NCBI GenBank assembly: GCA_030522415.1
Contig: CM060112.1
Coordinates: 14,121,227 to 14,185,226, forward strand
Origin: Channallabes apus
Taxonomy: Eukaryota > Chordata > Actinopteri > Siluriformes > Clariidae
Direction: 5' to 3'
Length of the DNA: 64,000 nucleotides
Positions 4,093-63,200 of the stretch are shown here, piece by piece. Made by a program: the position numbers and the translations under genes. Within the stretch, counting starts at the first letter, position 1; every line of letters starts with the position of its first letter. The notes beneath the pieces were generated by a model. The model was given only the letters and a program-made list of their open reading frames with translations. It had not been told where the DNA came from and searched no databases.

Positions 4093-5320
4093 GTCCTAAT
4101 TTTGGAAAAATTCTGGAGGGATGTCCTTCAAACCCTGTCTTACATACTAAATAGCAATCTTGAACCAGGGGCCCTTATTGCTCTTTTTGGCAGTACTGGA
4201 GAGGATGATAAGCGTAGCGTCTAATGGCGCTTTTCCACTGCATAGTACGGCACGACACGGTTCAGTTCAACTCACTTTTGGGGGGTTTTCCACTGGGAAC
4301 AGTACCTGGTACCGGGTCCTTTTTTTAGTACCACCTCAGCCGAGGTTCCAAGCGCACCGAACCGTTACCAAAACGTGACGTGTAAACTCTGCTGGTCGCT
4401 GATTGGCCGGAGAAAATCGTCATTACTGCGTCACTGAACTTGCGACACGAGACACAACAGAACCGCTATATTTAGAAACAGCCAGAGAAGGATCGGACGC
4501 ACCTTTTTGTATTAACCAAACATTTTCTTTGGCTGCCATCAGCCTCTTTTGAAACAAACTCCTTCGTCTCGCTGTTAAAAACATCCACATGCCGAGAATG
4601 AAGAACACCATGCCGTCGATATGCTCCATTGTTGTGTGTTTGTTTGTGGCGTGTTTATGATGATGTCACGGCAGTAGCGGCGCCGCAACTAAAACGACAT
4701 GTGAGTAATCCCGCCCACTCTAAAGCGTTACTAAACTGCAAAACTGGAAGCGCAAACCGACCCGAACTGAGCCGAACTGAAGTGAGTTGAACTGAACCGT
4801 GTCGTGCCGTACTATGCAGTGGAAAAGAGGCATAGCTGCAGCTAAACGTTGATTATTGCCTTTTGCATCCCTTCTGGCCAGGCATTCTCTTTTTTTTTAA
4901 CTGTAAGTGGTAGGATGCCACCTCACCCACTCAGGCCTATTATGTCTTGTTTTTCCGTATAGAAAATTCTTTACTTAATTAGTCGAAATAAATTTTTTTC
5001 ATATAAATTTATAATTTAATCCACTTCTTATTTAATTGGTTGGTTTTTCACCTGTGTATGTTTTTTTTTTTTTTTTTTCTTTCCATTCTTCTCTTTTTTT
5101 TCCTCTCTCTTTTGCACACAAAACCCAGATTTCCAGCTCCATGTTTTTCTTTCTTTCTTTTTCTTCTTTAAATATGCATAGTGTCTAGACTTTCTTAGAC
5201 ATGTAAGGTTGTCATGGAGTTATAGAGGGTTTATAAGGGGTTTATAAATATAGATTGTACAAGTGAGCCTTGAAACACACACTACATGTTTACTTTATGT
5301 CTCTGTTGTTCTCAATTCAG
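4093..5320 (+). mobile_element. L1/Tx1-like LINE, 3' fragment (interrupted)
   Basis: The sequence aligns with the 3' end of the LINE at 19.6-25.8 kb: the ORF2 stretch around GAAAAATTCTGGAGGGATGT, the GGCCAGGCATTCTCTT segment, then the 3'UTR with its GGTTTATAAGGGG motif. It is 5'-truncated, heavily mutated and split by the Harbinger-like MITE at 4225-4832. It is older than the two longer copies. Confidence 0.8.
4225..4832 (-). mobile_element. PIF/Harbinger-like MITE, copy 1
   Basis: 608 bp with long terminal inverted repeats (TGGCGCTTTTCCACTGCATA at the left, complement at the right) carrying a GTACGGCACGACACGGTTCA block. It sits inside a LINE fragment, so the empty site is known from other LINE copies: TAA precedes it (4222-4224) and TAG follows (4833-4835), consistent with a 3-bp TAA duplication with one later mutation, the PIF/Harbinger signature. 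A 68-codon minus-strand frame (4629-4423, MEHIDGMVFFILGMW...) is shared with the copy at 54 kb and may be a remnant of the parent transposon's coding part. Confidence 0.75.
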
Positions 5321-5446
5321 TACCAGTTATTTATTTGCTAGTTATCTTTGCTTGATTTCGTGCAATGATTTTGGTCCTTCTGAAACACAGGCAGTGAGTG
5401 TATTAGTGTGAGCTGTGGTGATTTGTGCATGTTTTGGCCCTTTCAG

Positions 5447-5569
5447 GTGGACAGTAGCACCGAGTCTGCAGAAGCAGCCTGCGATATCCTGTCTCAACTA
5501 GTGAACTGCTCACTCAAAACCTTGGGGCTTATATCCACAGCTCGACCCAGCTTCATGGAGTTGCCTAAG
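5447..5569 (+). CDS. fbxl3: fbxl3 coding exon 2
   Basis: 41 codons in phase 0, beginning [18 protein letters not shown] and ending SFMELPK, between TTTCAG and GTAAAC splice sites. It encodes early leucine-rich repeats that form the cryptochrome-binding arc. It differs from the mammalian protein at only a few residues. Confidence 0.95.
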
Positions 5570-6282
5570 GTAAACAAGACTACCTGTACATCTTTCAGGC
5601 GGAGGCAGATATAACCTGGCAGGTGTAGATGAAAGCAGTGTCTCAGTAAACAAGCTCAGTCTGCAGAAGTGCCAACATTACACATTAGCTGCGTGATTTT
5701 TTTTACCACGTTCTGTCAGGAGACCTGAAACCTTTCTGGCTGTTTAGCTCGCAGACTGAAATACACAACCAGGTCACTGATCGGGAAGGTTACAGGACAT
5801 GTAAAACATGTTGTTTACAGCAGCTACTTTTTTACTGACAATATCCAGGCGAACTTTGACCTGTGCATTCATGCATCTTTGTCTTGTGAGCCAATATAAA
5901 ACAAGAAGGTCTGTGTATGATCTGATTTCCTTGTAAAAAAAACAAAAAAAAAACAGTGGCGCTACTAATACAGAGTTTCCCCAATATTCTTTTCTCAGGC
6001 ATGACGATAGTAGAGGTTTTATGTTTCAATTTGTGTGTTGTATTGATTTCCAGAACCAAATGGGAGGTTTCACAACTGTAATAAAGGCCATTGTGTATTT
6101 TCCCATTACTGTACTACAGAGTAGTTTTGATTTTAAGAGGCTATCCCCTACATTTAATAAATGTATTATTCATCAGTATTTACTGTATAATATTATGTCA
6201 GTCACTGATGGTAAACAATTTTAAGTTCTAATAACTTGCACATTCAAAATAACAGTTTTAAATGTACTATTTAAAATATTTA

Positions 6283-7845
6283 CACTGCGTTCCAAATTAT
6301 TATGCAAATTGGATGTAAGTGTCATAAACGTTAAATGTTTAGTTTTTAAATTAAACTCATGGATGGTGTTGTGTCTCAGGTCTGTTTGGATCACGGAACT
6401 GAATCTCAGACACGTGTGATAATTAGTTTGTCAGATAAGCCAAATTAAAGGAAAAGTACTGAAGGTTGTTCCACATTATTAAGCAGGCCACAGGTTTCAA
6501 GCAATATGAGAAAGAAAAAGGATCTCTCTGCTGCCGAAAAGCGTCAAATATCGCAATGCCTTGGACAAGGTATAAAAACATTAGATATTTCAAGAAAACT
6601 TAAGCGTGATCATCGTACTGTGAAGACATTCGTGGCTGATTCAGAGCACAGACAGGTTCGTGCAGATGAAGGTAGAATGAAGAAGGTTTCTGCAAGATAA
6701 ATTCATCGGATTAAGAGAGCAGCTGCTGAAACGCCATTACAAAGCAGCAAACCGGTATTTGAAGCTGCTGGTGCCCCTGGAGTCCCGCGAACCTCAAGGT
6801 GTAGGATCCTTTAGAGGCTTGCAGTTGTGCATAAACCTACTATTCGGCCACCCCTAATCAATGCTCACAAGCAGAAACGGTTGCAGTGGGTCCAGGCATA
6901 CATGAAGACAAGTTTTCAAACCGTCTTGTTTACTGATGAGTGTCGTGCAACCCAGGATGTTCCAGATGGATGGAGTAGTGGATGGTTGGTGGATGGCCAC
7001 CATGTCCCAACAAGGCTGCGATGTCAACAAGGAGGTGCCGGAGTCATGTTTTGGGTAAGAATCATGGAGAGAGAGCTGGTAGGCCGCTTTAGGGTCCCTG
7101 AAGGTGTGAAAATGACCTCTGCAAAGTATATTGACTGACCACTTTCTTCCATGGTACAAAAAGAAGAAAAGTGCCTTCCGTAGCGAAATAATCTTCATGC
7201 ATGACAAATCACCATCTCATGCTGTAAAGAATAACTCTGTGTCATTGGCTGCTATGGGAATAAAAGATGAGAAACTCATGGTGTGGCCATCATCCTCCCC
7301 TGACCTCAACCCCATTGAGAACCTTGGAGAATCTTCAAAAGATCTATGAGGGTGGGAGGCAGTTTGATTCAAAACAGCAGCTCTGGCAGGCTATACTGAC
7401 ATCCCGCAAAGAAATTCAAGCAGAAACTGTCCAAAAACTCACAAGTTCAATGGATGCAAGAATTGTGAAGGTGAGATCAAAGAAGGGGTCCTATGTTAAG
7501 ATGTAACATGCCCTGTTAGGATGTTTTTGATTGAAATAGTTTTTGATTTCTTTAAATATTTGAATTCTTTAAACCTCCCAATGCTTCAAATTCAACAAAA
7601 GCCTATTTTCAGTTTTACAACCTATAAAATGTTTTAACTCTGTTGTGCATAATACTTTGAAACAGTGCATTTTCAGTTTTTTTTTTATTTTTAAAATAAA
7701 TATGATCATTAGGAGGTTTGTTCAATAAAATTCAAATTATACCCTAATAGTTGATGACTAGAAAATTATACTGACTGTCATTTGCATTTACTAATTATGA
7801 AAATCAGAGAAAGATATAATTTGCATAATAATTTGGAACGCAGTG
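6283..7845 (+). mobile_element. Tc1-like DNA transposon, full length but dead
   Basis: 1563 bp flanked by TA (6281-6282 and 7846-7847). The terminal inverted repeats match perfectly over 28 bp, beginning CACTGCGTTCCAAATTATTA. The inside holds one broken transposase gene on the + strand. Perfect inverted repeats with a damaged gene fit a moderately old copy of an autonomous family. Confidence 0.9.
6506..7506 (+). pseudogene. Tc1-like transposase pseudogene
   Basis: DDE/D transposase of the Tc1 family, the enzyme that cuts and pastes the element. The N-terminal helix-turn-helix is recognisable (SAAEKRQISQCLG, RKLKRDHRTVK). The catalytic core keeps VLFTDECRA (first D), IIFMHDKSPSHA (second D) and SSPDLNPIENL (third acidic residue). 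It is broken by a stop at 6698-6700, a second stop at 6812-6814 and frameshifts near 7135 and near 7335. Laid end to end the pieces cover essentially the whole protein of about 330 residues up to the C-terminal KKGSYVKM. No function is expected from this copy. Confidence 0.92.
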
Positions 7846-8026
7846 TATATATTAAATAAAAAAATAATTATATATTTGACATGCTGATGGACTGCAAATG
7901 TCTAATAAAACAAAGGAATTCTGTATTTTTCTCTGGCCTTTTTTTAAACTCACTATGATAATACATTTTGTTAGACACAAACATAGTTATAGTCAACCCT
8001 TTTGCCATCCATTTCCTAATTTAGTT

Positions 8027-8027
<1 letters not shown>

Positions 8028-8061
<34 letters not shown>
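8028..8061. repeat. (AT)n microsatellite
   Basis: Uninterrupted AT run inside fbxl3 intron 2. Confidence 0.85.
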
Positions 8062-8066
<5 letters not shown>

Positions 8067-8224
8067 TTATTTTATTTATTTATTTATTTTTTTATTATTC
8101 TGTATAGCTGCAGTTCCACAAGGTTGTGTTTTTTGCGAGGTGAATGATGGGGCCTTGAAGCATTCAGCAGCCTCAGTGCAGATTGTCCTTGGTATGCATC
8201 AGTCTGAGGCTAGTTTTAGGGGGA

Positions 8225-8345
8225 TAGTTGTTGTCCTGCTCCAGGGGCGCTATATCATGGCTGACCCTGCGCTCTGACCCCAGTTATGCTGGTATATGCG
8301 AAGAAAGAATTTCTCTGTGCAGTTATGTATATGAGACAAATGAAG
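8225..8345 (+). mobile_element. SINE 3' part (family 2)
   Basis: Carries the block CCAGGGGCGCTATATCATGG, then GCTGACCCTGCGCTCTGACC and a GCGAAGAAAGAATTTCTCTG tail, which I recognise from a widespread teleost tRNA-derived SINE. A related copy with its 5' part lies at 18425-18645. Confidence 0.6.
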
Positions 8346-8763
8346 GTTTGGTTTACGTTAGGTTAAATCAATAGAAATAGTAACAGCATTTGTGAACAGC
8401 ATTTGTCCCATCTTGTCCAGGACGGGAAAAGCTGCAATGATTTGTGCTTGCCTGTCACACTGTATTGTTTTGTTCCACCATGCCGTGTGCTCACTGTTGG
8501 GTCCTGATATTTGTCATGCTGACAAAAGTGCCGCTGTCCTTTTCATAATCACAGCAGCTGTCGTGTGAGGAGCATTAGATTTGTCTGTCAGGGAGGAAGG
8601 CTTGAACAAAAAAAGTTATTGTGTAATCTGTTAATTATTTAAAATTAAGGAAAATTGTTTTATTTTATTTTAGATGACACCTTAAAATGCTTCTTTTCTA
8701 TTACCAAGTTTGTGTAATGGTTCCAGCATCCTGAGGGAGTGGTATGGTTTAATTTCATATACG

Positions 8764-8803
8764 CGCGTGTGTGTGTGTGTATGTATGTATGTATGTATGT
8801 ATG

Positions 8804-8872
<69 letters not shown>

Positions 8873-8894
8873 GTATATATATGTATATATATAT
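8764..8894. repeat. Compound (GT)n(ATGT)n(AT)n microsatellite
   Basis: Runs from GT through ATGT repeats into a long AT stretch with occasional G. Likely length-polymorphic. Confidence 0.9.
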
Positions 8895-9153
8895 AGAAAC
8901 ATCTAAATATCACCTGTTCAGAGGAGATTAATGCATTTTTTTGGACGCCTTCAGCAAAACTTTACAATGTAGAAAGAAATAAAAATCAGGAACCATCATG
9001 GAGTTAGAAAGTGATCTAAAACTTTTGAACAGTAGTGTATTCTTTTTTTTTTTTTTTTTTTTACACGGAAAGATGAAGTCAGATTAGTCATTAGTATTTA
9101 TTTACCTTTTATAGAGTTTTTAATTGTTTTGTCGTTTTTTGTCTTTTCCATAG

Positions 9154-9325
9154 TCTCATTTCATCTCAGCCTTGACGGTGGTTTTTGTAAACTCCAAGTC
9201 CCTGTCCTCCCTGAAGATTGATGACACACCAGTAGATGACCCGTCACTCAAAGTTCTTGTGGCCAACAACAGCGACACCCTCAAGCTCCTGAAAATGAGC
9301 AGCTGCCCTCATGTGTCACCTGCAG
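9154..9325 (+). CDS. fbxl3: fbxl3 coding exon 3
   Basis: 172 bp: 57 codons plus one base, from [16 protein letters not shown] to HVSPA with the first base of the next glycine, between TAG and GTAGGA splice sites. The reading frame joins exon 2 in phase 0 and exon 4 in phase 1. It encodes further leucine-rich repeats ([32 protein letters not shown]) and is near-identical to the vertebrate protein. Confidence 0.95.
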
Positions 9326-11349
9326 GTAGGAGTGAAGTAGAGACACAGCATGAAACTCATTAAAAATGCAAGCAGCATGATTAATCTCCAAGAGTTGCAT
9401 ATCATGCTGCCATGATCAAATCACCTGGTTGATTCATGACGTCATAACATAAAAACAATGTCACTTTGAGTGTTGACAAGTGCTGGGTTTGTGCAAGAAC
9501 CAGAGAAGAGGGAGCAAGGAAGGAAGTGATGCGCAGGAGAGACCGGTAGAGGGAAGGTGAGAGAGGGATATTATGCTGATTGGAGCACTTGCAGTTTTTG
9601 TTGAATAAAAAAAAAAAAAAGTCATTAAACATATACCAAGCTGTAGAATATGTTTTTAACTAGAAGGTGTGATGTGCATTTCATTAACTGAGTTGTAGAG
9701 TAGTACACAATGACACAGAGGGCTATATCAAAGTAGCTACCTGTACCCGTTTCTTTACAAGCGTGTATTCTGTAACTATACAAACATGACTGAGCAAAAA
9801 AAAAAAGATTTACGCGATTTAAAAATAGTGATAAATACTACGACATACAGTAGCAGAAAACCCAAATGCAAAATATGTCTCCCTCGTCAAGCATCGGGCA
9901 GGACTTCCATGTAAGCATTTTTTGTTTTCGTTTATTTAATTGGTCATTAACCAAAGCAGTGTTGCTGGAATGGATCCGTGCCACTGGAGTTTTAAGGATG
10001 AATCCTCCTGGGTTATTTTTAAAGAAGAGCCCGCTCACCTTGCAAAACTGTTTTTTGCAGAGTATGTGTCACCATCAGTGTCCCCTTCTTCTTTTTCACT
10101 TTTTTTTTTTATGCCAGTTGGCATCCGCTGCATGTACTGCCTCTCAACACACCGCTGTCGTGGTAGCAGAATATACAGGTTTATATATACAGAACAAGAC
10201 CGGCTTTGCAAGAGGGAACTGTCCGCTACTAGCTACTCAATTGCAGATGGCATCATTATTATGGATTTTTATAAAGGATAAACAAATATACTTGAGTGGC
10301 TGTCAATATACTTAGGCACAAGTTCAAGTAAACACTATGTGTGGGAAACACTGCATATTGACTTATTCAAAAAAGACAAATATTTAACCCATTGTCTGGT
10401 AAATCAGTAGATTTGTGTAAGCTTAGGTGTGTTATCCATTAGCGAGTCACAGTTGTAAGCAGTGTCCTATGATTTAGGAGGTTCTAGGGGCCAAGCTATT
10501 TAAAATAAAAAAGGAAATTCTTAACATCATTAAAATAAAATTAGCATTGATCAGAAAATGCTACCAGATTAATGGCGCTTTTCCACTGCATAGTACGGCA
10601 CGACACGGTTCAGTTCTACTCACTTTTGGGGGGTTTTCCACTGGGAACAGTACCTGGTACCTGGTCCTATTTTTAGTACCACCTCAGCCGAGGTTCCAAG
10701 CGCGCCGAACCGTTACCAAAACGTGACGTGTAAACTCTGCTGGTCACTGATTGCCCGGAGAAAATCGTCATTACTGCGTCACCGAACTTGCGACACGAGA
10801 CACAACAGAACCGCTATATTTAGAAACAGCCAGAGAAGGATCGCATGCACCTTTTTGTATTAACCGTCGGCCTCTTTTGAAACAAACTCCTTCGTCTCGC
10901 TGTTAAAAACATCCACATGCCGAGAATGAAGAACACCATGCTGTCGATACGCTCCATTGTTGTGTGTTTGTTTGTGGCACGTTTACGATGATGTCACGGC
11001 AGTAGCGGCGCCGCGACTAAACGACATGTGAGTAATCCCGCCCACTCTAAAGCGCAAACCGAGCCGAACTGCGCCGAACCGAAGTGAGTTGAACTGAACC
11101 GTGTCGTGCCGTTCTATGCAGTGGAAAAGAGGCATCAGTGTTATTCTATTATTTTGTTTAGTGGTTCACTCTACCAACTGCTTGTTGGCGCGTACCTCAA
11201 TGTCCCTTCATTGTGGAGCTTTGGCAACCATTTTAGTCACCATCTGGAGCCCTGAAAACCTGTGTGTGACCTCTGATTTCATAACATTTGTTCGGGTATT
11301 TCTAAACTGCCTTGTGTTTTTGCTCGTTTTCCTTTCCTGACTTCTTTAG
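9326..11349 (+). other. fbxl3: fbxl3 intron 3
   Basis: GTAGGA donor and TTCTTTAG acceptor. Holds Harbinger-like MITE copy 2 (10573-11134). Bases 9326-10570 show no identifiable repeat or exon; overlapping open frames at 9866-10315 are not recognisable. Confidence 0.85.
10573..11134 (-). mobile_element. PIF/Harbinger-like MITE, copy 2
   Basis: 562 bp, same family as 4225-4832 with the same ends and orientation. TAA precedes it (10570-10572) and TCA follows (11135-11137), compatible with a mutated TAA duplication. It lacks part of the segment that carries the small shared open frame. Confidence 0.75.
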
Positions 11350-21017: not shown

Positions 21018-24000
21018 ATGAATAGTTCTTTAAACTTTGTGAGCTGGAATGTTAAGGGTTTAAACCATCCGGTGAAGAGAAGGAAGGTGCTCTCACACCT
21101 TAAACAACTTAACACTGCAATCGCATTTTTACAAGAAACTCACATTCGCAGTTCTGATAATTCTCGCCTTATGTCACGTTGGGGTGGGCAGCACTACCAC
21201 TCGACCTTTCAGGCCAAAGCTAGGGGTGTCTCGATTCTCATTAACCCAAACATCTCTTTTGAGCATCATAATGTTATTACGGATATACAAGGTCGTTATA
21301 TCATTGTTTCAGGGAAGTTATTTAATACTAATGTAGTGTAGGCTAATTTATATGCCCCTAATTATGACAATGTCTCCTTCTTTGAACATTTTTTTCTCTT
21401 CTACCAGATCTGAGCTCATACTCTCTCATATTAGGGGGAGACTTTAACTGCTGCTTAGATCCATCACTTGACAGGTCATCTCCCAATCCTATACCTCTGA
21501 GTAAATCCGCCACGCTACTTCAGTCCTATTTCTGCAGCTTTGGTATCTCTGACATATAAATCCTTAATAAAAAAAAGAGAGAATACTCCTTTTTCTCACA
21601 TGTTCATCATACTTTCCCCAGAATTTATTATTTCTTTATAGATAATCAACTGATCCCAATGGTTACTTCTTGTGCTTATCAGAGCATTGTGATATCAGAT
21701 CATGCTCCAGTTGTTATGTCTATAAAACTCCCCGATCTCCCTCAAATTAATAAGCATTGGCGCTTTAATTCATCGTCCTCTGATATAGGACGGTTTTGTA
21801 AAATGTATGGATGACCAGATAGTTTTTTTCTTAAACATAAAGGAAACACCTGAAGTGTCACGTTTAATTGTTTGGGATTGTAACAGGCGGTTGCCTGGTT
21901 ACGGGCTCCCTGTGGGAGCTAATTAAGCAACTCCCATAAAAGGGGAAGAGAGGCTGGGCCAGGTAACAGCAGCCATAACACAGCCTATGCTAAATGCTTA
22001 ATGCTAAAGTTTAATGCTAAAAGCTAATATATTAGAAACCTGAATGCGGGATATGTCTGTCCAACACGCATGTGAGTACTGTACATGGATTTTAATGTTT
22101 GTTGTGCAAGGCCCGTCGTGGCCATTATATGTGCTTACTGTGCACTGATTGCATCCCTCTTGCTGTGCTTATGCAGGAGGGTTTTTTGTTCTATGTTTGG
22201 TGTGTGTTCTCCTGGGTGTTGAGGCGTGTCTCTGCTGTCCCCCCACCCCCCCGGGAAACCACGCTAGCGGCTGTTGCATGCGGGGCTGAACCATCGGCTA
22301 CACCCGCGTCACCCTCAGAGGGACGTCGCTCACAGTAAGGACGTCTGGCTTGGAGCAGGGCGGCGCCTGGCTTTGATTATTGACTTATGGACTTGGGTTG
22401 AGAGAGAAAGGGCTCTGTATGAGCGCGAACATGGACTGTATGAATGTGGTATGAGTGGCCGGCGAGTGAGTGGTAATTGGTACAGCACTTCATTAAATGT
22501 ATATACACTTTGAATATATATCCTTGATATCTCTGGTGGTCCTTATCCTACCCTGATTTCTGCTAACGGCAAGTTACTGTCTTCAACAATAGTAGCGAGT
22601 TTGTTACAGGATGCTCTGAAAGCCTATCTCAGGGGACAGACAATTTCATACACTGCAAATATGAAAAGGAAGGCATATAAAGAACGAAAAGATTTGACCA
22701 ACCAAATTAAAGAAATTGACGAGCAGTGTGCTCTATTTAAAAACCCTGATCTCTATAAAAAACGTGTAGAATTGCAAACTAAGTTTGAACTTATTTCAAC
22801 GCATGTAATTGAACGTCAATTATTAAAGAGTAGGAGCCAATTTTACATTCATGGTGACAAATCTGGTAAACTTTTAGCTAATCAGTTAAGAGGATTTAGA
22901 GCACAGCAACAAATTACAAAAATTCGGATGGAGGATGGTACCATCACTACGGACCATTCTAAAATTAATGATGCATTCAAGACTTCTTATTCTCGATTAT
23001 ATACTTCTGAGTTCCCAAAGGACCATAGTTCAGTTGAGAATTTCTTGATTGAACTAGATATCTCAACACTGTCCCCAGATTCTAGATTAAGATTAGAAGA
23101 GCCCATATCACAAGAGGAAATCAGTTCAGCTATCTTCTCGTTGCAATCTGGTAAGTCCCCGGGTCCTGACGGGTTCCCTGCAGAGTTTTTTAAATCATTC
23201 TCCTCATACCTTGCACCACAACTAGCTTTGGTTCTATCTGAATCTTTTAAGCAAGGTAAGATGCCTGCGTCATTTAATGAGGCTCGCATCACCCTCATAG
23301 CAAAGAAGGATAAGGACCCAACAGAGTGCTCTTCATATAGACCAATCTCTCTTCTTAATGTGGATGTTAAAATCCTTGCTAAAGTCTTGGCTCGTAGATT
23401 AGAGAATGTTCTACCCTCAATTATATCTGAGGACCAGACTGGTTTTGTTAAAAATCGTTATTCTTACTTTAACATTCGACGCCTTATGGATATCTTGTAC
23501 ACACCATCAGAGGAGACCCCTGGGTGTGTCCTTTCTTTGGATGCTGAAAAGGTTTTTGATCGTGTGGAATGGGAGTATTTATTTAGGGCTTTAGAAAAAT
23601 TCAATTTTGGTCCAAGTTTTATCACTTGGGTTAAATTATTATATTCAAGCCCTACTGCCTCAGTTCTGACAAATGCTCAGCAGTCTCAACCATTCAGTCT
23701 TCAGCGGGGAACTCGTCAGGGGTGTCCCCTTAGCCCACTGCTCTTTAACCTTGCCATTGAGCCACTAGCAATTGCATTCCGTAGTTGTAGAAATATATCT
23801 GGGATTTGGAGGCAGGGAGAATAACATAAAGTTTCCCTTTATGCAGATGACCTTCTACTTTTTTTTATCAAATCCAGTCTCCTCTCTGCCACCTGTGCTG
23901 TCATTGCTCAGGGAATTTAGCTATTTTTCAGGATATAAATTAAATTTGCACAAAAGTGAACTTTTTCTGCTAGATAATACTGCAGTAACAACTGGTATGC

Positions 24001-25488
24001 ACAATTTTCCATTCAACAAAAATCAGTTTACCTATCTTGGTATTACAATTACAAGGAAACATAAACACCTTTTTAAAGAAAATTTTATTAGGTTGTTGAA
24101 CCAAACAAGAAAGGGCTTGGGACGATGGTCACCACTGTCCATGTCCCTGGTGGGCCGCATTAATGCCATTAAAATGAGTATTCTTCCTAAATTTTTATAT
24201 CTCTTTCAGTCTGTACCTGTTTTTATTCCCAAATCTTACTTTGGTGCTTTAGACTCAATTATATCTTCTTACCTTTGGAAAGGTAAACATCCTCGATTGA
24301 AGAAGTCCCTACTTCAAAGATCTAAAAGTGACCGTGGCATGGCTCTACCTAACTTTCGTTTCTACTACTGGGCAGCAAACATTCGATCTGTCATCTTTCG
24401 GTCATATTTTCATAACCAACCTAATCGGCCTGGTTGGGTGGAAATGGAGATAAAGTCTGTCAAAAACCTCTCTCTCTGCACTCCTTGGATCTGCTCTCCC
24501 CATCCCCTCAATTAAATTAATCAATAACTCAGTTGTTAGGCATACACTGAGAGTATGGGCTCAGTTCAGAAAGCACAGCGGTCTTCTGGGCTTTTCTCTG
24601 TCCAGTCCTATCGTCTCTAACCATCTCTTCCAACCTTCTTTACAGGAATGGTACGATAAGGACATCAAGCTTTGCAAAGATCTGTTTGTTGACCATAAAT
24701 TGGCATCGTTTGAACAGCTTTCCGAAAGGTTTAACCTACCCAATTCTCATTTGGGTAAGACACTTCATTCGCCCTTTAATACCAAAAAGGCTCCTGCAGC
24801 AAACATTCCAGATAAACTCCTCTGTTTGTCCCCGCTGCATAAAGGCCTAATATCCACTGTTTATGGTGGATTGATGGCTTCGAGTCACACCCCTTTGGGT
24901 AAAATTAAAACTGCTTGGGAGAAGGATTTAAATTTGTCACTATCAGATGATACTTGGAATTCAATTCTTAAACTTGTCAAATCTACCTCCTTATGTGCCC
25001 GCCACTCTTTATTACACTTTAAGGTTGTACACAGGGCTCATCTCTCCAAACTTAAACTTTCCCGTTTCTACCCAGACATTGATCCTTGTTGTAATGAATG
25101 TTAAAGCGGAGAGGCGTCTCTTATTCATATGTACTGGACATGTCCGAATTTTGAAAAATTCTGGAGGGATGTTTTTAAGACCTTGTCGTATGTATTGAAA
25201 TGCAATCTTGAACCAGACCCTCTGATTGCTCTTTTTGGTGTCACTGGAGAGGAAGATAAGAGTCTAACTCCAGCTAAAAAGCGTTTGTTATCTTGTGCGA
25301 CACTCCTGGCCAGGCGTTCTCTTTTATTCAAGTGGAAGGATGCCACGTCACCCACTCACGCCCAGTGGCTCAGAGATATCATGTCCTGTTTGTCCCTGGA
25401 GAAGATTCACTACACAATTCGTTATTCAGACTTGAAATTTCAACAGGTGTGGGGGCCCTTCCTTCACTTTATTCATATACATTTATAG
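21018..25488 (+). pseudogene. LINE ORF2 pseudogene (endonuclease + reverse transcriptase)
   Basis: Starts MNSSLNFVSWNVKGLN with the APE-type endonuclease (catalytic N; LQETH). It stops at a TAG at 21339-21341 where the copy at 64 kb has a sense codon. Further frameshifts follow around 21400-21850, then the solo LTR at 21879-22608. The reverse transcriptase resumes at 22609 (SPGPDGFPAEFF, SYRPISLLNVDVK, RGTRQGCPLSPLLFNLAIEP) and runs to a stop at 23822. Later frames carry LNLHKSELFLLDN and the C-terminal region up to HFIHIHL. The YADD-bearing segment near 23840 lies in a shifted frame. It cannot encode a working enzyme. Confidence 0.9.
21879..22608 (+). mobile_element. Solo LTR (730 bp) inside LINE ORF2
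   Basis: Begins TGTAACAGGCGG and ends TTGTTACA (TG...CA ends), flanked by a 4-bp duplication GGAT (21875-21878 and 22609-22612). The uninterrupted site is known from the LINE copy at 64 kb, so the boundaries are exact. A TATA-like CATAAAAGG (near 21953) and an ATTAAA signal (near 22493) suggest + orientation. No internal retroviral-type genes remain; recombination between two LTRs would leave this. Confidence 0.85.
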
Positions 25489-25797
25489 TTTGATTCCTTT
25501 CTTATTTAATTACTTGTTTGTTTGTTTTCTTTCCCCTTTTTATTCCTTTTTATTTTTTGCACATAGAACCAAAAAAACTTCCAGCTCCATATTCTTTTTT
25601 TTTCTTCTTTTTGTTCTCTCTCAATGCCTGGCATCTAGCCTTTCTTATGCATGTAAAACTGGCTTGGAGTCAGGGAGGGACGGGGTGGGTGTTATAGGGT
25701 TTATAAGGGGGTTATAAAACCTGTATTAAAACATTGCATGTTTACCCTGTTATATCCCTGTTAAAAATCAATAAAAATATTGTTGATTAAAACATGC

Positions 25798-25992
25798 TGT
25801 AACGGTACGGCAAGTCACGCCCTCTGCTCGAGCCAAGTCATGATCTCCAGCGATTCCTTTCCACATTCCATCCCGTTGCCTCCGTTTTACCGCCCCATTC
25901 ATTCATGCTCGAGCATACCTGTGCCTCATCTCATTCATCACATCGACTCAATATAACTCCTCCTCAGACAGCGAACTCTTGCCGAATTATTC
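25798..25992 (+). repeat. Inverted U3 stub attached outside the 3' LTR of element A
   Basis: Reads TGTAACGGTACGGCAAG... in the + direction, the reverse of the adjoining LTR. It comprises a full U3 (25798-25980, 183 bp, the same length as the U3 at 32255-32073, one mismatch seen), then GCCGAATTATT (25981-25991) and one C (25992), and joins the LTR end TGTCACGG at 25993. The junction is identical to the complement of the 5' LTR/primer-site junction at 31246-31265. Confidence 0.9.
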
Positions 25993-26989
25993 TGTCACGG
26001 GCTGGACCGTGTGAGGCAGGCTTAGGGAACCCAAAAGCAGACAAAACAGACTTTGTTCAGTATAACTGATTTTAATGCAAAATATGAAAGTCAAACAGAA
26101 GGAGAATTATAATAAAAGGAAAGTTACTTTATTTCAAAATCACTGATCTTAATGCAAAATATGAGAGTCAAACAGAAGGAGAATTATAATAAAAGGAAAG
26201 TTACTTTATTTCAAAATCACTGATCTTAATGCAAAATATGAGAGTCAAACAGAAGGAGAGTTATAATAAAAAGGAAAGTTACTTTCTTGGTTTCAGTACT
26301 ATGGATTCTAACTCTGGATAAGAAAGTGAAACAGAGAATGGAAAAACAAAAACATTACTTGAGACGACCTGTGGCGTGGCTTGGCCGAGGCTGTGAACAG
26401 GAGCCAAGGAGTGAGTGACACAGAGCATGCGCAGTGTCCTGCAGAGCGGGCGCAACTGAGAACGCGCAGGTAGAGCGAAGGCAGGAGCAGAGCGAGCACA
26501 GCTGTGTGGAGAGCTGAAGTCCGTTGAGCGCGCGCTGAATCCGACGCGCCGGCAGAGAGAGCGCAGCAGCAGAGTGAGATACGACCTGCAGCAATCCTAT
26601 GGGTGTTAACAGAGTCAAAGTCGAGAGTGAAAGCAAAGATTCAAAGCCGGGTAATCAGTCAACGTAGCAAACAGTTCCGATTCGTGAAGCAAAGACGTAA
26701 CTAGAGGTGAAAAAAGGGTCAACAACGTGAGAGGAAAAAACGGTATTACTTGGCAAAAATACTAGGCACAAAAAAACACTTGGCTTGGAGCACGCAATAA
26801 TTCGGCAAGAGTTCGCTGTCTGAGGAGGAGTTATATTGAGTCGATGTGATGAATGAGATGAGGCACAGGTGTGCTCGAGCATGAATGAATGGGGCGGTAA
26901 AACGGAGGCAACGGGATGGAATGTGGAAAGGAATCGCTGGAGATCATGACTTGGCTTGAGCAGAGGGCGTGACTTGCCGTACCGTTACA
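25993..26989 (-). repeat. 3' LTR of element A (997 bp)
   Basis: On the minus strand it begins TGTAACGGTACGG (26989) and ends CCGTGACA (25993). It contains about 2.7 units of a 77-bp tandem repeat near 26070-26275. Pol ends inside it at 26944. Confidence 0.93.
26070..26275. repeat. 77-bp tandem repeat inside the LTR
   Basis: The motif containing AGTCAAACAGAAGGAGA recurs at spacings of 77 bp (starts near 26081, 26158, 26235). The same array is present in the other LTR near 31350-31540. Confidence 0.85.
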
Positions 26990-27010
26990 GTACCCCCCCT
27001 CCTATGGGCG
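26990..27010 (-). other. Polypurine tract of element A
   Basis: On the minus strand a purine-rich AGGAGGGGGGGTAC directly precedes the 3' LTR (TGTAACGG), as expected for the plus-strand primer. It overlaps the pol reading frame. Confidence 0.8.
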
Positions 27011-30000
27011 CCACCGGGCGTCCTAACTGGTGCCTCTGGGTGCTGCCGGTGGAAGTCTGAGATTAGAGTTGGGTCGACAATGAACCTGGCAGGAACCCAA
27101 CTTCTCTCTTCTGGCCCATAACCCTCCCAGTCGACGAGGTACTGTAGGCCTTTGCCTCGGCGTCGGGCTCTTAGCAGCTTGCGTACTGCAAAAACCTCAT
27201 CTCCGTCAATGAGTTGAGGAGGAGGGGGAGGGCGGGTGGGTTGGGATAGAGGGCAGGGGACCAGTCGCCTGAGTTGCGAAACGTGAAATGTTGGGTTGAT
27301 GCGGCGCATAGCTAGAGGTAAGGAAAGCCTGACGGCAACGGGGTTAATTACCTTGGTGATGGTGAATGGTCCGATGAACCTGGGGGACAATTTGGGGGTG
27401 GTTGTTTTGATGGGAATGTCTCGGGTGGACAGCATCACCCTCTGACCCACTCTGTACCTGGGGGCTGCTGAGCGGCGTCGGTCAGCTTGCCGCTTGAAGG
27501 TACTGATGGTGCGTAGGAGACGGGTTCTGGCCTGGGACCACACTCTCCTGCAGCGGCGCACGAAAGACAGAGCTGACGGTGCTGTTGCTTCCTCTTCTTG
27601 GGATGGGAACAGTGGAGGCTGATAGCCCAAGCAGCACTGGAATGGAGAGAGGCCTGTAGCAGAGGTTGGCAGAGAGTTGTGCGCATACTCTATCCAGGGG
27701 AGTGTCCTGCTCCATGTGGTTGGGTCCCTTGAGGCCATGCACCTTAAGGCCTTCTCTAGCTCCTGGTTCAATCTCTCTGTCTGTCCATTTGACTGAGGGT
27801 GATAACCAGAGGATAGGCTGGGTGTTGCTCTGATTAGTCTGCAAAATGTCTTCCAGAACTCTGCTGAGAACTGGGGGCCACGGTCAGAGACAATGTCAGA
27901 GGGGAGACCATGCAGACGGAAGGCGTGGAGGACCATCAGCTCGGCCGTTTCCTTGGCTGACGGGAGCTTTGGCAAAGGAACGAAATGGGCAGCCTTTGAG
28001 AAGCGATCAACTATGGTCAGTATACAGGTGTTGCCCTCAGAATTGGGGAAGCCGGTAATGAAGTCCAGAGCGATATGAGACCAGGGGCGGCGAGGGGCTG
28101 GGAGGGGATTCAGGAACCCAGCAGGGGGTTTGTTGGTTGACTTGTTCCTGATGCAAGTGTCACAGGCTGTCACAAACCCCTGAACATCAGTCTTCATAGA
28201 AGGCCACCAGAACCGTTGTTGAAGGAGGGATAGGGTGCGGGCTCTCCCCGGATGACAGGCAATTCGAGAGCTGTGTCCCCATTCCAGCACCCGAGATCGG
28301 ACAGACACTGGGACAAAGAGAAGGCCTGGGGGAACGTTGCTGGGGCCTGGCTCCCGATTGAGCGCATTCTTCACCAGCGATTCAATATCCAGGACTGCGG
28401 CCGCCACAAGGCAACGAGGAGGCAGGATTGTCTCGGCCGGCACTGGTTCATGGGGAGTGGAGAACTGCCGAGATAGGGCGTCAGGCTTCCCATTTTTGGA
28501 GCCCGGGCGATATGAGAGCGAGAAATCAAAACGGGAGAAAAATAGGCTCCACCTGGCCTGACGGGCATTGAGCCTCCTGGCTGACCTGAGGTACTCCAGG
28601 TTTTTGTGGTCGGTCCAGACCAGGAATGGAGAGGAAGTTCCCTCTAACCAGTGTCTCCACTCTTCTAGGGCAAGTTTGACCGCCAACAGCTCCCGATCTC
28701 CTATGTCATAGTTCCTTTCAGCAGAGGAGAGACAGCGGGAGAAAAAGGAGCAGGGGTGCAACTTATTATCCTTGAGTGACCTTTGAGACAAGACGGCCCC
28801 AACTCCTGACTCGGAGGCGTCCACCTCCACCACAAACTGGAGAGACGGGTCCGGGATGATCAGAATGGGTGCAGATGTGAACCTAAGTTTTAGGTTGGTG
28901 AATGCCTCTTCAGCCTGCAGGTTCCAGAGAAAGGGAACCTTGGTGGAGGTTAGCATGGTGAGAGGTGCTGCCACTGAGCTGTAATTTCTGATGAAGCGCC
29001 TATAAAAATTGGCAAAGCCCAAGAATCGCTGGAGCTCTTGTCTTGTGGTGGGTGTGGGCCAGTCTGTAACAGCAGTTAGCTTGGATGGCTCCATCTGCAG
29101 GCTGGAAGGGGCAATAATAAAACCAAGGAATGACACAGATTCTCTGTGGAATTCACACTTCTCTGCTTTAACAAAAAGTTTATTCTCGAGGAGTCTTTGC
29201 AAGACCTGTCTGACGTGCAACTTGTGCTCCTTCAGAGAACGAGAAAAAATCTAAATGTCGTCCAGGTAAACAAAAACGGATATATTTAGAAAGTCCCTTA
29301 GGACGTCATTCACCAGGGCTTGAAAAACGGCAGGAGCGTTGGTCAGTCCGAAGGGAACCACTAGGTACTCGTAGTGGCCTGTGGGTGTATTGAATGCAGT
29401 CTTCCATTCGTCCCCCTCCCTTACTCTTACCAGGTGATATGCGTTTCGCAAGTCCAGTTTGGTGAACACACTAGCCCCTTGCAGCAGTTCGAACGCAGAG
29501 GACATGAGGGGAAGGGGATAGCGATTCTTGACAGTGATAGCATTTAGACCACGGTAATCAATACAGGGGCGAAGGGACTTGTCCTTCTTATCCACAAAAA
29601 AGAAACCAGCTCCGGCCGGCGAGGATGAGGGTCGGATGATCCCTGCTGCCAGTGACTCAGTGATGTACTTATCCATGGCTTCTCTCTCCGGAGCCGAAAG
29701 GGAATACAAGCGGCCTCTTGGGGGGGTGGTATCTGGGAACAGATCAATGGAGCAATCATATGGTCTGTGGGGTGGTAAAGAGAGGGCACGTGACTTGCTA
29801 AACACTTGCCGGAGGTCGCGGTACTCAGGCGGAACACTGGACAGATCAGAAACATCATCGTTGACAACACCGGGTGGTGAATGAACTCTAGCGGAGTGAA
29901 GGCACGAAGACATACAGGAAGGGCTCCAATCAAGAATGGTGTTCTTGGCCCAATCAATGTTGGGGTTATGTCTGACCAGCCATGGATTCCCAAGGACGAC

Positions 30001-30335
30001 TGGGGCATGAGAGCTCTTCATAATGAAAAAGGAGATAATCTCTATATGGTTACCTGAGGTTCTAAGAGTGACAGGGTGCGTGCGATGGGTGATGGGAGAT
30101 AGAGAGCTGCCGTCAAGGGCCTGGACAGACAGGGGGTTGTCTAGGGGCAGAAAAGGGATTCCCAGCTTCCTTGCGGTAACGGCACAGATCAGGTCTTGGT
30201 CGGATCCAGAGTCAATGAGGGCCTTGAGTGGTTGCGCTTGGTTGTTCCAGACGATCATGACTGGTAATAAGGATCGTTTACCTGAGAGGTTTCCTTGAGA
30301 GTGGCCCTCCAAGACTCCCAGTCTCATTGGGGGGC

Positions 30336-31241
30336 CTATCTTTTTAACGGGCACTGAAGGCGGAAATGACCTACTTGGCCACAGTAGAAGCAGGCTTCTT
30401 TCTCCCGCCGACGTTGGCGCTCTTCGGGGGAGATTCGGGTCCGGTCAACCTGCATAGGCTCAGCCAGCGGATCAGTAGCTTGTGGAGGGGTGATTGGTCT
30501 GACTCTTATGAGGGGTTGTGTGTGTTCACGGCGCCTAAGTCGGAGGCGCGCATCGACGCGGCCAGCTAAGTCCATGAGTTCCTCCAGGTTCGCTGGCTGC
30601 TCCCGAGAGATCAACTCATCCTTGATGGCCTCACTCAGCCCGTGAAAAAACACGTCATACATGGCACAGTCGTTCCATCCACAAGAAGCTGCCAGGGTGC
30701 GGAACTCAATGGCATAATCATAGGCTGAACATGTTCCTTGACGGAGTCTCAACATCTGCCCCGCTGCTTCTCGGCCAGAGAGTGAACGATCAAAGACTCT
30801 CCTCATCTCCTGAGTGAATGTCTCGTAGTTGGTGCAACGGGGATCATCAGCGTCCCAAAGCGCTGTTCCCCATTCACGAGCCTTTCCAGAGAGGAGGGTG
30901 ATGATGTAAGCTATCTTGGAACGTTCAGTGGGGAATGTTGAGGTTTGTAATTCAAGAGACAATGAGCATTGGGAAAGAAAAGATCGGCAGGTGCCAGGTT
31001 CTCCGCTGTAGGACTGGGGAGGCGGCAGACGAGGCTCTCGGATCTGAGGTGGTGGGGACAGCACTGGAGGTGGGGGTGGTGCAGCCTGAAGATGTTCGAT
31101 CCGAGAGGTCAATGCAGAGAGTGTGTCTGCCATAAGCTTAAGGCTCTGGTTGACCTGCAGAATTTCCCCTTGGTGTGCGCCGAGGAGGGTGCCCTGGGCC
31201 TCCAAGGCGGTTCTGAGCTGTCCTAGGTCTGCTGGGTCCAT
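30336..31241 (-). CDS. Element A gag
   Basis: 301 codons, intact, starting 16 bases inside the 5' LTR end ([17 protein letters not shown]). Gag forms the particle that packages element RNA. It has an N-terminal coiled-coil-like region, a retrotransposon-gag core (about residues 75-220: [33 protein letters not shown]) and one zinc knuckle [14 protein letters not shown] (residues 284-297) just before the stop. The pol frame lies at -1 relative to gag and overlaps its end, with a GTTAAAA heptamer at 30348-30342. Confidence 0.93.
30342..30348 (-). promoter_or_regulatory. Candidate -1 frameshift site between gag and pol
   Basis: On the minus strand the last gag codons read CCG TTA AAA AGA TAG. 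G TTA AAA resembles known slippery heptamers of the GTTAAAC type. A slip of one base back enters the pol frame (AAG ATA GGC). The distance to the gag stop is short, as expected. No downstream structure was evaluated. Confidence 0.5.
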
Positions 31242-31245
31242 GTTG

Positions 31246-31257
31246 GCCGAATTATTC
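31246..31257 (-). other. Self-priming primer-binding site of element A
   Basis: Directly after the 5' LTR end (minus strand) comes G, then AATAATTCGGC. It does not start TGG, so it does not look like a tRNA 3'-end site. The 11 nt are exactly complementary to GCCGAATTATT inside the LTR at 32072-32062, the inferred RNA 5' end. Confidence 0.75.
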
Positions 31258-32255
31258 TGTCACGGGCTGGACCGTGTGAGGCAGGCTTAGGGAACCCAAA
31301 AGCAGACAAAACAGACTTTGTTCAGTATAACTGATTTTAATGCAAAATATGAAAGTCAAACAGAAGGAGAATTATAATAAAAGGAAAGTTACTTTATTTC
31401 AAAATCACTGATCTTAATGCAAAATATGAGAGTCAAACAGAAGGAGAATTATAATAAAAGGAAAGTTACTTTATTTCAAAATCACTGATCTTAATGCAAA
31501 ATATGAGAGTCAAACAGAAGGAGAGTTATAATAAAAAGGAAAGTTACTTTCTTGGTTTCAGTACTATGGATTCTAACTCTGGATAAGAAAGTGAAACAGA
31601 GAATGGAAAAACAAAAACATTACTTGAGACGACCTGTGGCGGTGGCTTGGCCGAGGCTGTGAACAGGAGCCAAGGAGTGAGTGACACAGAGCATGCGCAG
31701 TGTCCTGCAGAGCGGGCGCGACTGAGAACGCGCAGGTAGAGCGAAGGCAGGAGCAGAGCGAGCGCAGCTGTGTGGAGAGCTGAAGTCCGTTGAGCGCGCG
31801 CTGAATCCGACGCGCCGGCAGAGAGAGCGCAGCAGCAGAGTGAGATACGACCTGCAGCAATCCTATGGGTGTTAACAGAGTCAAAGTCGAGAGTGAAAGC
31901 AAAGATTCAAAGCCGGGTAATCAGTCAACGTAGCAAACAGTTCCGATTCGTGAAGCAAAGACGTAACTAGAGGTGAAAAAAGGGTCAACAACGTGAGAGG
32001 AAAAAACGGTATTACTTGGCAAAAATACTAGGCACAAAAAAACACTTGGCTTGGAGCACGCAATAATTCGGCAAGAGTTCGCTGTCTGAGGAGGAGTTAT
32101 ATTGAGTCGATGTGATGAATGAGATGAGGCACAGGTGTGCTCGAGCATGAATGAATGGGGCGGTAAAACGGAGGCAACGGGATGGAATGTGGAAAGGAAT
32201 CGCTGGAGATCATGACTTGGCTCGAGCAGAGGGCGTGACTTGCCGTACCGTTACA
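31258..32255 (-). repeat. 5' LTR of element A (998 bp)
   Basis: Same sequence as 25993-26989 with one extra base and about three substitutions. U3 is 32255-32073 and the R start is placed at 32072. It carries the promoter and the 77-bp repeats. Confidence 0.93.
32062..32102 (-). promoter_or_regulatory. Element A LTR core promoter (TATA and start site)
   Basis: Minus-strand ATATAAC at 32102-32096 is followed about 30 nt later by GCCGAATTATT at 32072-32062. The spacing is standard for TATA-directed initiation, and the 11 nt equal the complement of the primer site, so both lines of evidence point to a start at 32072. Confidence 0.7.
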
Positions 32256-32487
32256 CATGCACAAATATAGTACTGATGAAACTGAGTCACAATTTATTGC
32301 AATTCTAAACTTTATCCCCCTTTTAAATATAAATGTTCTTCTTAGCAAATGTACTGAACAACACAATGCTATACCATTGACATCGATTCCACATGGAATT
32401 CCTGTTCCATTTTTCATAAAACTATGTCTGATGCCTGGAAAACTTTCATCACCTTGCATTTGAGTATGGATTTTTGTGACTTCCCTG

Positions 32488-54166: not shown

Positions 54167-54745
54167 CATTACACATTCCACTGCATAGTACAGCTCACTT
54201 CGGTTCGGCTCAGTTCGGCTCGGTTTGCGCTTCCACTGCAGTTTAGTAACGCTTTAGAGTGGGCGGGATTACTCACGTGTCGTTATAGTTGCGGCGCCGC
54301 TACTGCCGTGACATCATCGTAAACGCGCCACAAACAAACACACAGCAATGGAGCATATCGACAGCATGGTGTTCTTCATTCTCGGCATGTGGATGTTTTT
54401 AACAGCGAGACGAAGGAGTTTGTTTCAAAAGAGGCTGATGGCAGCCAAAGAAAATTTTTGGTTAATACAAAAACGATCCTTCTCTGGCTGTTCTAAATAT
54501 AGCGGTTCTGTTGTGTCTCGTGTCTCAAGTTCAGTGACGCAGTAATGACGATTTTCTCCGGCCAACCAGTGACCAGCAGAGTTTACACGTCACGTTTTGG
54601 TAACGGTTCGGCGCGCTTGGAACCTCGGCTGAGGTGGTACTAAAAAAAAGTACCAGGTACCAGGTACTGTTCCCAGTGGAAAACCCTCCCAAAAGTGAGC
54701 TGAACTGAACCGTGTCGTGCCGTACTATGCAGTGGAAAAGCGCCA
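54167..54745 (+). mobile_element. PIF/Harbinger-like MITE, copy 3
   Basis: Same family as 4225-4832 and 10573-11134 but in the opposite orientation. The right end GTGGAAAAGCGCCA is followed by TAA (54746-54748) and the more decayed left end is preceded by TAA (54164-54166), a 3-bp duplication. A 65-codon + strand frame (54348-54545, MEHIDSMVFFILGMW...) is the same as in copy 1. Confidence 0.78.
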
Positions 54746-60228: not shown

Positions 60229-63200
60229 TCAACAATATTTTTATTGATTTTAACAGGGATAAAACAGGGTAAACATGTAATATTTTAATACAGGTTTTAT
60301 AATCCCCTTATAAACCCTATAACACCCACCCCGTCCCTCCCCGACTCCAAGCCAGTTTTACAAGGATATGAAAGGCTAAACGCCAGGCATTGAGAGAAAC
60401 CAAAAAAGAAAAAAGAATAAAGAATATGGAGCTGGAAGTTTTTTGGTTCTACGTGCAAAAAATAAATAAATAAAGAGGAATAAAAAGGGGAAAGAAAACA
60501 AACAAACAAGTAATTAAATAAGACAGGAATCAAACTATAAATGTATATGAAAAAAGTGAAGGAAGGGCCCCCACACCTGTTGAAATTTAAAGTCTGAGTA
60601 ATGAATTGAGTAGTGAATCTTCTCCAGGGACAGACAGGACATGATATCTCTGAGCCACTGGGCGTGAGTGGGTGACGTGGCATCCTTCCACTTGAATAAA
60701 AGAGAACGCCTGGCCAGGAGTGTCGCAAAAGATAACAATCTCTTTTTGGCTGGACTTAGACTCTTACCCTCTTCTCCAGTGACACCAAAAAGAGCAATCA
60801 GAGGGTCTGGTTCAAGATTGCAATTCAATATGAAGGACAGGGTCTTAAAAACATCCCTCCAGAATTTTTCCAAATTCGGGCATGTCCAGTACATATGAAT
60901 AAGAGACGCCTCTCCACTTTTACATTTATTACAGCAAGGATCAATGTCTGGGTAGAAACGGGAGAGTTTAAGTTTGGAGAAATGAGCCCTGTGTACAACC
61001 TTAAACTGTAATAAAGAGTGGCGGGCACATAAGGAGGTTGAGTTGATAAGTTTAAGAACTGAATTCCAAGTATCATCTGATAGTGACAAATTTAAATCCT
61101 TCTCCCAAGCAGTTTTAATTTTACACAGAGGGGTATGACTCGAAGCCATCAATCCACCATAAATAGTGGATATTAGGCCTTTACGCAGCGGGGACAAACA
61201 GAGGAGATTGTCTAGAATATTTGCAGCAGGAGCCTCAGGGAAATTTGGTATTACAGAGCGAATGAAGTGTCTTACTTGCAGATATCTGAAAAAATGAGAA
61301 TTGGGTAAGTTAAACCTCTCGGAAAGCTGTTCAAATGATGCAAACTTATGGTCAACGAACAGGTCCTTGCAAAGCTTGATGCCCTTATTGTACCATTCCT
61401 GAAACACTGAATCCTGTAAAGAAGGCTGGAAGAGATGGTTAGAGACGATAGGACTGGACAGAGAAAAGCCCAGAAGACCGCAGTGCTTTCTGAACTGAGC
61501 CCATACTCTCAAGGTATGCACCACTACTGAGTTATTGATTAATTTAATTGAGGGGATGGGGAGAGCAGATCCAAGGAGTGCAGAGACAGAGAGATTTTTG
61601 ATAGACTTTATCTCCATTTCCACCCAGGCAGGCCGATTAGGTTGGTTATGAAAATATGACCAAAAAATGACAGAACGAATGTTTGCTGCCCAGTAGTAGA
61701 AACGAAAATTAGGTAGAGCCATGCCACCGTCTCTTTTAGATCTTTGAAGTAGGGACTTATTCAATCGTGGATGTTTACCTTTCCAAAGGTAAGAAGATAT
61801 AATTGAGTCTAACGCGCCAAAGTAAGATTTGGGAATAAAAACAGGTACAGACTGAAAGAGATATAAAAATTTAGGGAGAATCCTCATTTTAATGGCATTA
61901 ATGCGGCCCACCAGGGACATGGACAGTGGTGACCATCGTCCCAAGTCCTTTCTTGTTTGGTTCAACAACCTAATAAAATTTTCTTTAAAGAGGTGTTTAT
62001 GTTTCCTTGTGATTGTAATACCAAGATAGGTAAACTGATTTTTCACTATGTTGAATGGAAAATTGTGCATACCAGTTATTACTGCTGTATTATCTAGCAG
62101 AAAAAGTTCACTTTTGTGCAAATTTAATTTATATCCTGAAAAATAGCTAAATTCCCTGAGCAATGACAGCACATGTGGCAGAGAGGAGACTGGATTCGAT
62201 AAAAAAAGTAGAAGATCATCTGCATAAAGGGAAACTTTATGTTCTTCTCCCTGCCTCCAAATCCCAGATATATTTCTACAGCTTCGGAATGCAATTGCTA
62301 GTGGCTCAATGGCGAGGTTAAAGAGCAATGGGCTGAGGGGACACCCCTGACGAGTTCCCCGCTGAAGACTGAATGGTTGAGACTGTTGAGCATTTGTCAG
62401 AACTGAGGCAGTAGGGCTTGAATATAATAATTTAACCCAAGTGATAAAACTTGGACCAAAATTGAATTTTTCTAAAGCCCTGAATAAATACTCCCATTCC
62501 ACACGATCAAAAGCCTTTTCAGCATCCAAAGAAAGGACACACTCAGGGGTCTCCTCTGACGGTGTGTACAAGATATCCATAAGGCGTCGAATGTTAAAGT
62601 AAGAATAACGATTTTTAACAAAACCGGTCTGGTCCTCAGATATAATTGAGGGAAGAACATTCTCTAATCTACGAGCCAAGACTTTAGCAAGGATTTTAAC
62701 ATCCACATTAAGAAGAGAGATTGGTCTATATGAGGAGCACTCTGTTGGGTCCTTATCCTTCTTTGCTATGAGGGTGATGCGAGCCTCATTAAATGACGCA
62801 GGCATCTTACCTTGCTTGAAAGATTCAGATAGAACCAAAGCTAGTTGTGGTGCAAGGTATGAGGAGAATGATTTAAAAAACTCTGCAGGGAACCCGTCAG
62901 GACCCGGGGACTTACCAGATTGCAATGATGAGATAGCGGAACTGATTTCCTCTTGTGATATGGGCTCTTCTAATCTTAATCTAGAATCAGGGGACAGTGT
63001 TGGGATATTTAGTTGAGTCAAGAAATTTTCAACTGAACTATGGTCCTTTGGGAACTCAGAAGTATATAATCGAGAATAAAAATTCCTGAATGCATCATTA
63101 ATTTTAGAATGGTCGGTAGTGATGGTACCATCCTCCATCCGAATTTTCGTAATTTGTTGTTGTGCTCTAAATCCTTTTAACTGATTAGCTAAAAGTTTCC

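Follow-up and report, generated by a model that had tools for sequence, protein, structure and literature searches.

The 64,000-nucleotide stretch of Channallabes apus DNA analyzed here (the window) is part of one contig of an assembly of 1.16 Gb in 93 contigs. It contains a Gypsy retrotransposon, the body of which (25993-32255) has its sense strand on the window minus strand and terminates with CCGTTACA at 32255, followed by CATGC. An extra 195 bp (25798-25992) lies outside the 3' LTR yet inside the CATGC target duplication and is composed of a complete inverted U3 (183 bp), the 11-nt self-primer/primer-binding site (PBS) sequence and one C. As the element sense strand is the window minus strand, these 195 bp sit downstream of the 3' LTR, the end of which facing the extra piece reads TGTCACGGG from 25993 on. 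The features of the locus are as follows.

25793-25797, no strand: left copy of the target-site duplication CATGC, outside the extra piece
25798-25980, plus strand: extra complete U3 of 183 bp, inverted relative to the element and starting at the LTR terminus TGTAACGG
25981-25991, plus strand: 11-nt self-primer/PBS GCCGAATTATT at the junction, which occurs both as the first 11 nt of R and as the PBS complement
25992, plus strand: single C, the normal separator of PBS and LTR end (the same C is found at 31257)
25993-26989, minus strand: 3' LTR of 997 bp, with a U3 of 183 nt as set by the position of the 11-mer
26990-27003, minus strand: putative polypurine tract (sense AGGAGGGGGGG) plus a TAC spacer ahead of U3, assigned a role from its sequence
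26944-29220, minus strand: 3' part of pol, with RNase H, integrase, Tf2-type SH3 and chromodomain, in an open reading frame that extends into U3
29251-30354, minus strand: 5' part of pol, with protease and reverse transcriptase through the YLDD box, then a premature stop
30336-31241, minus strand: gag of 301 aa, with Ty3-type capsid and zinc knuckle
31246-31256, minus strand: normal PBS (sense AATAATTCGGC), complementary to R nt 1-11
31258-32255, minus strand: 5' LTR of 998 bp
32256-32260, no strand: right copy of the target-site duplication CATGC

The normal boundary between 5' LTR and internal region has the identical string GCCGAATTATT-C-TGTCACGG, preceded by the start region of gag. Hence, the 12 nt adjoining the 3' LTR are an unprocessed G-PBS to which U3 is attached, and the C at 25992 would mark an LTR end left untrimmed by integrase on that side. 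The original prediction of a 183-bp inverted U3 within 195 extra bp inside CATGC was correct to the base. When U3 plus the 11-mer were aligned with the 5' LTR, 193 of 194 positions were identical, the sole difference being T versus C at position 119; against the 3' LTR 192 of 194 were identical (differences at 33 and 119). A chance origin is ruled out, since the inverted copy runs for 194 nt and has its limits precisely at the LTR terminus and the PBS. The two LTRs differ from each other by three substitutions and one 1-nt indel, a divergence in 998 bp that at vertebrate rates presumably corresponds to an age well under a million years. Base 98C is common to the extra U3 and both LTRs of the element, the other copies being split between C and T, which argues that the extra U3 and the LTRs derive from one template or from closely related ones.

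Inverted repeats are generally known to cause fold-back artefacts, and a false inverted join of reads during library construction or assembly might be thought to have generated the extra piece. We consider this very unlikely, given that the 119T is private to the extra U3 (the base was C in 31/31 other copies, a set of distinct fetched copies that cover the position, including the element's two LTRs and counting duplicate fetches once) and that the joint matches both the PBS and the target duplication to the base.

The coding regions gave Pfam matches to Ty3-type gag, protease, RVT_1, RT_RNaseH, H2C2, rve, SH3_Tf2-1 and Chromo. Those to RVT_1, RT_RNaseH, rve, SH3_Tf2-1 and Chromo were each above the Pfam cut-off, the order being reverse transcriptase, RNase H and integrase with the chromodomain at the integrase C-terminus, and Ty3 was the nearest PDB match of the reverse transcriptase/RNase H piece. 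The chromodomain together with a self-complementary PBS places the element in the Tf1/sushi group of chromodomain Ty3/Gypsy elements (chromoviruses), as the group is described in the available part of PMC10085805. Its termini also fit the sushi terminal motif TGTYANR/CNTNACA given in the portion of PMC3601003 at hand. Judged from its sequence, the window element is a young Tf1/sushi-type chromodomain Ty3/Gypsy element. A premature stop directly after the YLDD box (29221-29251, minus strand) leaves this copy now unable to make full pol, so its enzymes may have been supplied by another copy or the stop may be of later date.

The PBS copy at 31246-31256 matches the start of R over exactly 11 nt with mismatching neighbours on both sides, and the junction lies, as had been claimed, exactly on the self-primer/PBS. 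Eleven nucleotides is also the length of the Tf1 primer. A TATAA box lies 29 bp upstream of the start of R, from which we infer that the RNA begins at R. The PBS-LTR pattern of the family was found at 34 genome sites with three or fewer mismatches (including the two in the window), all of which were read. The 11-mer of the site itself was present at the R start exactly in 27/34 sites and with one mismatch in 4/34; for the remaining 3/34 it was not found in the stretch fetched. Three of the 34 sites have the PBS GCTGGATTATT, two of which show that change again where R begins, between different flanks, the third being among the three sites without an R-start match in the fetched stretch. In sibling loci (n=30) the final nine nucleotides of the 11-mer are found again in the LTR with one mismatch or none, although the context of one locus (L086) suggests that its recurrence is due to chance, which leaves 29/30; the 11th base of R is unlike the PBS copy in 9/30. 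The 11-nt primer of sibling elements, GCTGGATTATT, is different from that of the window element and is again self-matching (L057, L058, L060 and L076-L145). One locus, L072 (G000:C28:15251073), has a one-base PBS change without a counterpart at the start of R.

Primer and PBS covary in sibling families, so self-priming of the element, which the original prediction had assumed, gained support, and with it the pairing of the PBS with the element's own RNA at its 5' end. With regard to the additional 'pretzel' duplexes that join PBS-adjacent to 5' LTR sequence in the Tf1/sushi group, a single RNA fold paired R nt 17-23 with sequence about 40 nt past the PBS and left nt 1-11 free; the fold alone is no test of self-priming because primer-PBS pairing would be a pseudoknot.

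The body alone has no target duplication, the five bases before TGTCACGG being TATTC with CATGC on the other side, whereas the composite of body plus 195 bp is flanked by a perfect 5-bp duplication, CATGC. As only the composite carries the duplication, it entered the chromosome in one piece, with a U3 terminus at either end, in line with the one-unit, integrase-type insertion proposed earlier. Twenty other copies were tried, of which 17 could be scored (one of them a solo LTR), and their target duplications were 5 bp in 14/17 and 6 bp in 3/17. The insert termini TGTAAC...GTTACA with CATGC have the TG...CA ends and fixed-length duplication of integrase-mediated LTR insertion. Rather than one U3 end and one U5 end, the usual arrangement, both genomic ends are U3 termini (TGTAACGG on the left and the body end at 32255 on the right), which also bears out the prediction. 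The U3 and U5 termini (TGTAACGG and TGTCACGG) differ at only one of eight bases, hence a U3-U3 pair should suit integrase.

That the element landed next to an older stray U3 fragment is hardly credible. We found no point in its favor, and the position of the duplication, which encloses the composite and is lacking from the body alone (TATTC versus CATGC), led us to reject it. Autointegration was likewise rejected, the U5 end having kept an unprocessed G-PBS with no integrase joining there. A paralogous empty site was not seen in the window; the left flank is a repeat that occurs again at 60229-60822, but the likeness ends at 25786, short of the target by 6 bp, and the right flank occurs only once within the window. 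Other repeats are present as well. Window positions 21389-25786 and 60229-63945 are inverted copies of one repeat of about 4 kb, pieces of which are 90-98% alike, and the element target starts 6 bp past the end (25786) of the left copy. At 4222-11021 and 54237-54648 lie further repeats, in direct and inverted copies that are for the most part 95-97% alike.

The inverted-U3 junction is a single case. The original prediction had suggested a genome search for further copies of the junction, and the search returned none: the exact joint, a pattern made up of U3 end, 11-mer, C and LTR end, gave one genome match at three or fewer mismatches, the window itself, and the reversed-pattern control gave 0. 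In the family pattern, gag-start sequence precedes the PBS in 33/34 sites and U3 does so only at the 3' LTR of the window element. The sibling word GGATTATTCTGTCACGG had 635 genome matches at one mismatch or none (reversed control, 4), a number that includes the window family (27/34 of its sites at one mismatch, the odd junction among them, and 3 at none). Beyond the window family 70 of the 635 word matches were read (30 plus the next 40 in listing order bar one read before, all on contigs C1-C6 as the list runs by place), and U3 preceded the PBS in 0/70 of these sibling junctions. At the U5-side LTR ends of other copies a PBS scar was found in 0/19, all of which run straight into flanking DNA (20 ends were fetched and 19 recognized; three share one flank, giving 17 flanks, and one is a solo LTR). 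Three copies of the family, L019, L020 and L021 (G000:C1 42239200-42333234), have identical flanks on the side read, probably owing to chromosomal duplication of a segment carrying the element.

Given these data, we put the probability at roughly 85% that the insert is an aberrant product from reverse transcription of a self-priming Tf1/sushi retrotransposon, by whatever route, including variants not listed here. In normal reverse transcription plus-strand DNA begins at the polypurine tract and its 5' end is the U3 terminus, and in a normal self-primed round the plus strand copies the RNA self-primer, such that its 3' end is G plus AATAATTCGGC, the PBS. Both boundaries of the extra piece are thus natural strand ends, the U3 terminus being the plus-strand 5' end and the PBS end being the plus-strand 3' end, and the C before the LTR end was kept, as in unprocessed cDNA. 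In a self-primed element the 11-nt plus-strand 3' end has two perfect partners, the minus-strand 3' end for which it is intended and, on plus-strand DNA, the first nucleotides of R. The proposed sequence of events is that the particle would contain a sibling plus-strand DNA as well, and that the PBS 3' end would pair with the R start of this sibling and be extended through U3 up to its 5' end. The product, read in the sense direction, would be 5' LTR-internal-3' LTR-G-PBS-inverted U3. Removal of the flap and sealing would then give a double-stranded end, and integrase would join the two identical U3 termini to a target staggered by 5 bp.

We prefer priming of plus-strand DNA on plus-strand DNA because it explains both sharp boundaries by strand ends that are formed in every normal round, and we give the specific route through a sibling strand in the same particle about an even chance of being correct. 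The anatomy, the target duplication, the self-primer covariation and the lone genome match are observed; the pairing order, cutting of the flap and involvement of two templates are inferred. Several points weigh on the other side. The route calls for a second plus strand and for unnamed enzymes to remove the flap and seal the end, and the sequence cannot tell which 3' end was extended. The 0/19 scars indicate that PBS-tailed ends rarely if ever reach the genome. Also counted against the route are the single case, the three sites without a self-primer match in the stretch fetched and the broken pol.

Reverse transcription offers two other routes. The first is that advanced in the original prediction, in which a plus-strand DNA stub consisting of U3 and R nt 1-11 anneals to the PBS of the genomic RNA and primes a minus strand that begins with U3. 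This scheme yields the identical sequence, and a start at the polypurine tract accounts for the exact U3 terminus, but of the two boundaries that is the only one it accounts for. It requires plus-strand synthesis to stop precisely at R nt 11, although the normal template does not end there; we know of nothing in normal reverse transcription that halts plus-strand DNA at that nucleotide. Moreover, the stub must predate the minus strand that it primes, and the later plus strand would end in an inverted U3, making the usual second transfer impossible without a flap cut. We therefore regard the stub scheme as unlikely. A reverse-transcription accident via the 11-nt self-primer survives from the prediction as the best account, whereas its order of events, with a plus-strand stub priming the minus strand, is not required.

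In the second of these routes, the PBS would be paired with the 3' R copy of the 11-mer on the genomic RNA instead of the 5' copy, RNase H would cut after nt 11, and the primer, still linked to U3 RNA, would later be copied. Cleavage of the self-primer by RNase H is known for Tf1, and cleavage of this type would give the exact boundary at R nt 11, the 3' LTR having the same 11-mer. As the RNA continues upstream of U3, a second precise cut would be needed for the exact terminus, and polypurine tract or pol sequence is absent from the extra piece, so the nt-11 boundary is all that is explained. An RNA origin of the primer therefore seems to us distinctly improbable, more so than the DNA stub.

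The main rival outside reverse transcription is template switching on the chromosome after insertion, in which a polymerase of replication or repair leaves the left flank for the inverted U3 at the shared TGT and returns at the 11-nt homology. The LTR ends TGTCACGG and TGTAACGG have TGT/ACGG in common, in inverted order, the LTR termini being near-perfect inverted repeats of each other, and microhomology is present at both joints (3 nt at the outer and 11 nt at the inner). At least two switches would be required, the second to the PBS-LTR junction 5 kb off with subsequent realignment to the 3' LTR, and both breakpoints would fall on reverse-transcription landmarks only by accident. We give such switching a low probability, about that of the RNA-derived primer; like assembly error, it is less likely than an origin in reverse transcription. 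The weights assigned to the rival accounts are rounded and overlap at their edges.

In text searches of the open-licence literature we recognized no case of an integrated element joined through a self-primer to an inverted U3, and we know of no Tf1/sushi insertion that has an inverted U3 fused through the PBS, the feature by which this insert departs from the known insertions of its group. The broader kinds of error, primer-derived sequence at an LTR end and self-priming by strong-stop DNA, are already known. Mules et al. (1998) reportedly found Ty1 reverse transcripts with irregular ends, a likeness that goes as far as the title of that paper; Ty1 is tRNA-primed, whereas the window element is self-primed.

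Self-priming is common to the Tf1/sushi group, including fission yeast Tf1, and the window element resembles the group in having a chromodomain integrase and a PBS just past the LTR that pairs with the 5' end of its own RNA, as far as the accessible text of PMC10085805 goes. Colicelli and Goff (1986) cloned a MMLV circle with tRNA sequence between the LTRs, which, in the account excerpted from PMC12220202, is likewise a case of primer-derived sequence copied and kept at an LTR end; there the sequence was tRNA rather than the element's own U3, the DNA was circular and unintegrated, and a U3 terminus was lacking. Self-priming of HIV-1 minus-strand strong-stop DNA (Guo et al. 1997) is similar in that a strong-stop DNA end primes at the wrong place, but in the part of PMC4668388 available it concerns the minus strand and the TAR structure and gives heterogeneous aberrant DNAs that are unintegrated. 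Aberrant HIV and RSV integrations from altered ends also bring abnormal cDNA ends into a chromosome; in the sections of PMC5041404 at hand, the second end is joined by host enzymes with host rearrangements, in contrast to the clean 5-bp duplication of the window insert. The portion of PMC3832253 available describes HIV-1 mutant tRNA primers and holds no precedent for the window junction.

The insert would now have 183-bp terminal inverted repeats, and its second U3 promoter, which points into the element from the 3' side, could start an antisense RNA at 25981. If the junction is real and arose before integration, the insert preserves a reverse-transcription intermediate of a self-priming element as a natural fossil, and would indicate that PBS/R pairing is not confined to its normal step and that two U3 ends are usable by integrase in vivo. 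On the same condition it predicts a recognizable scar (inverted U3, 11-mer, C and U5 end) that could be looked for in every genome with Tf1/sushi elements, making the order of strand events countable. A wider proposal, to which we give somewhat less than an even chance, is that self-primed retrotransposons have a failure specific to their class: the PBS 3' end being complementary to the R start, strong-stop plus strand would prime on plus-strand DNA to give a terminally inverted cDNA with U3 at both ends that integrase accepts, and the element would gain a second, inward promoter that could drive antisense RNA.
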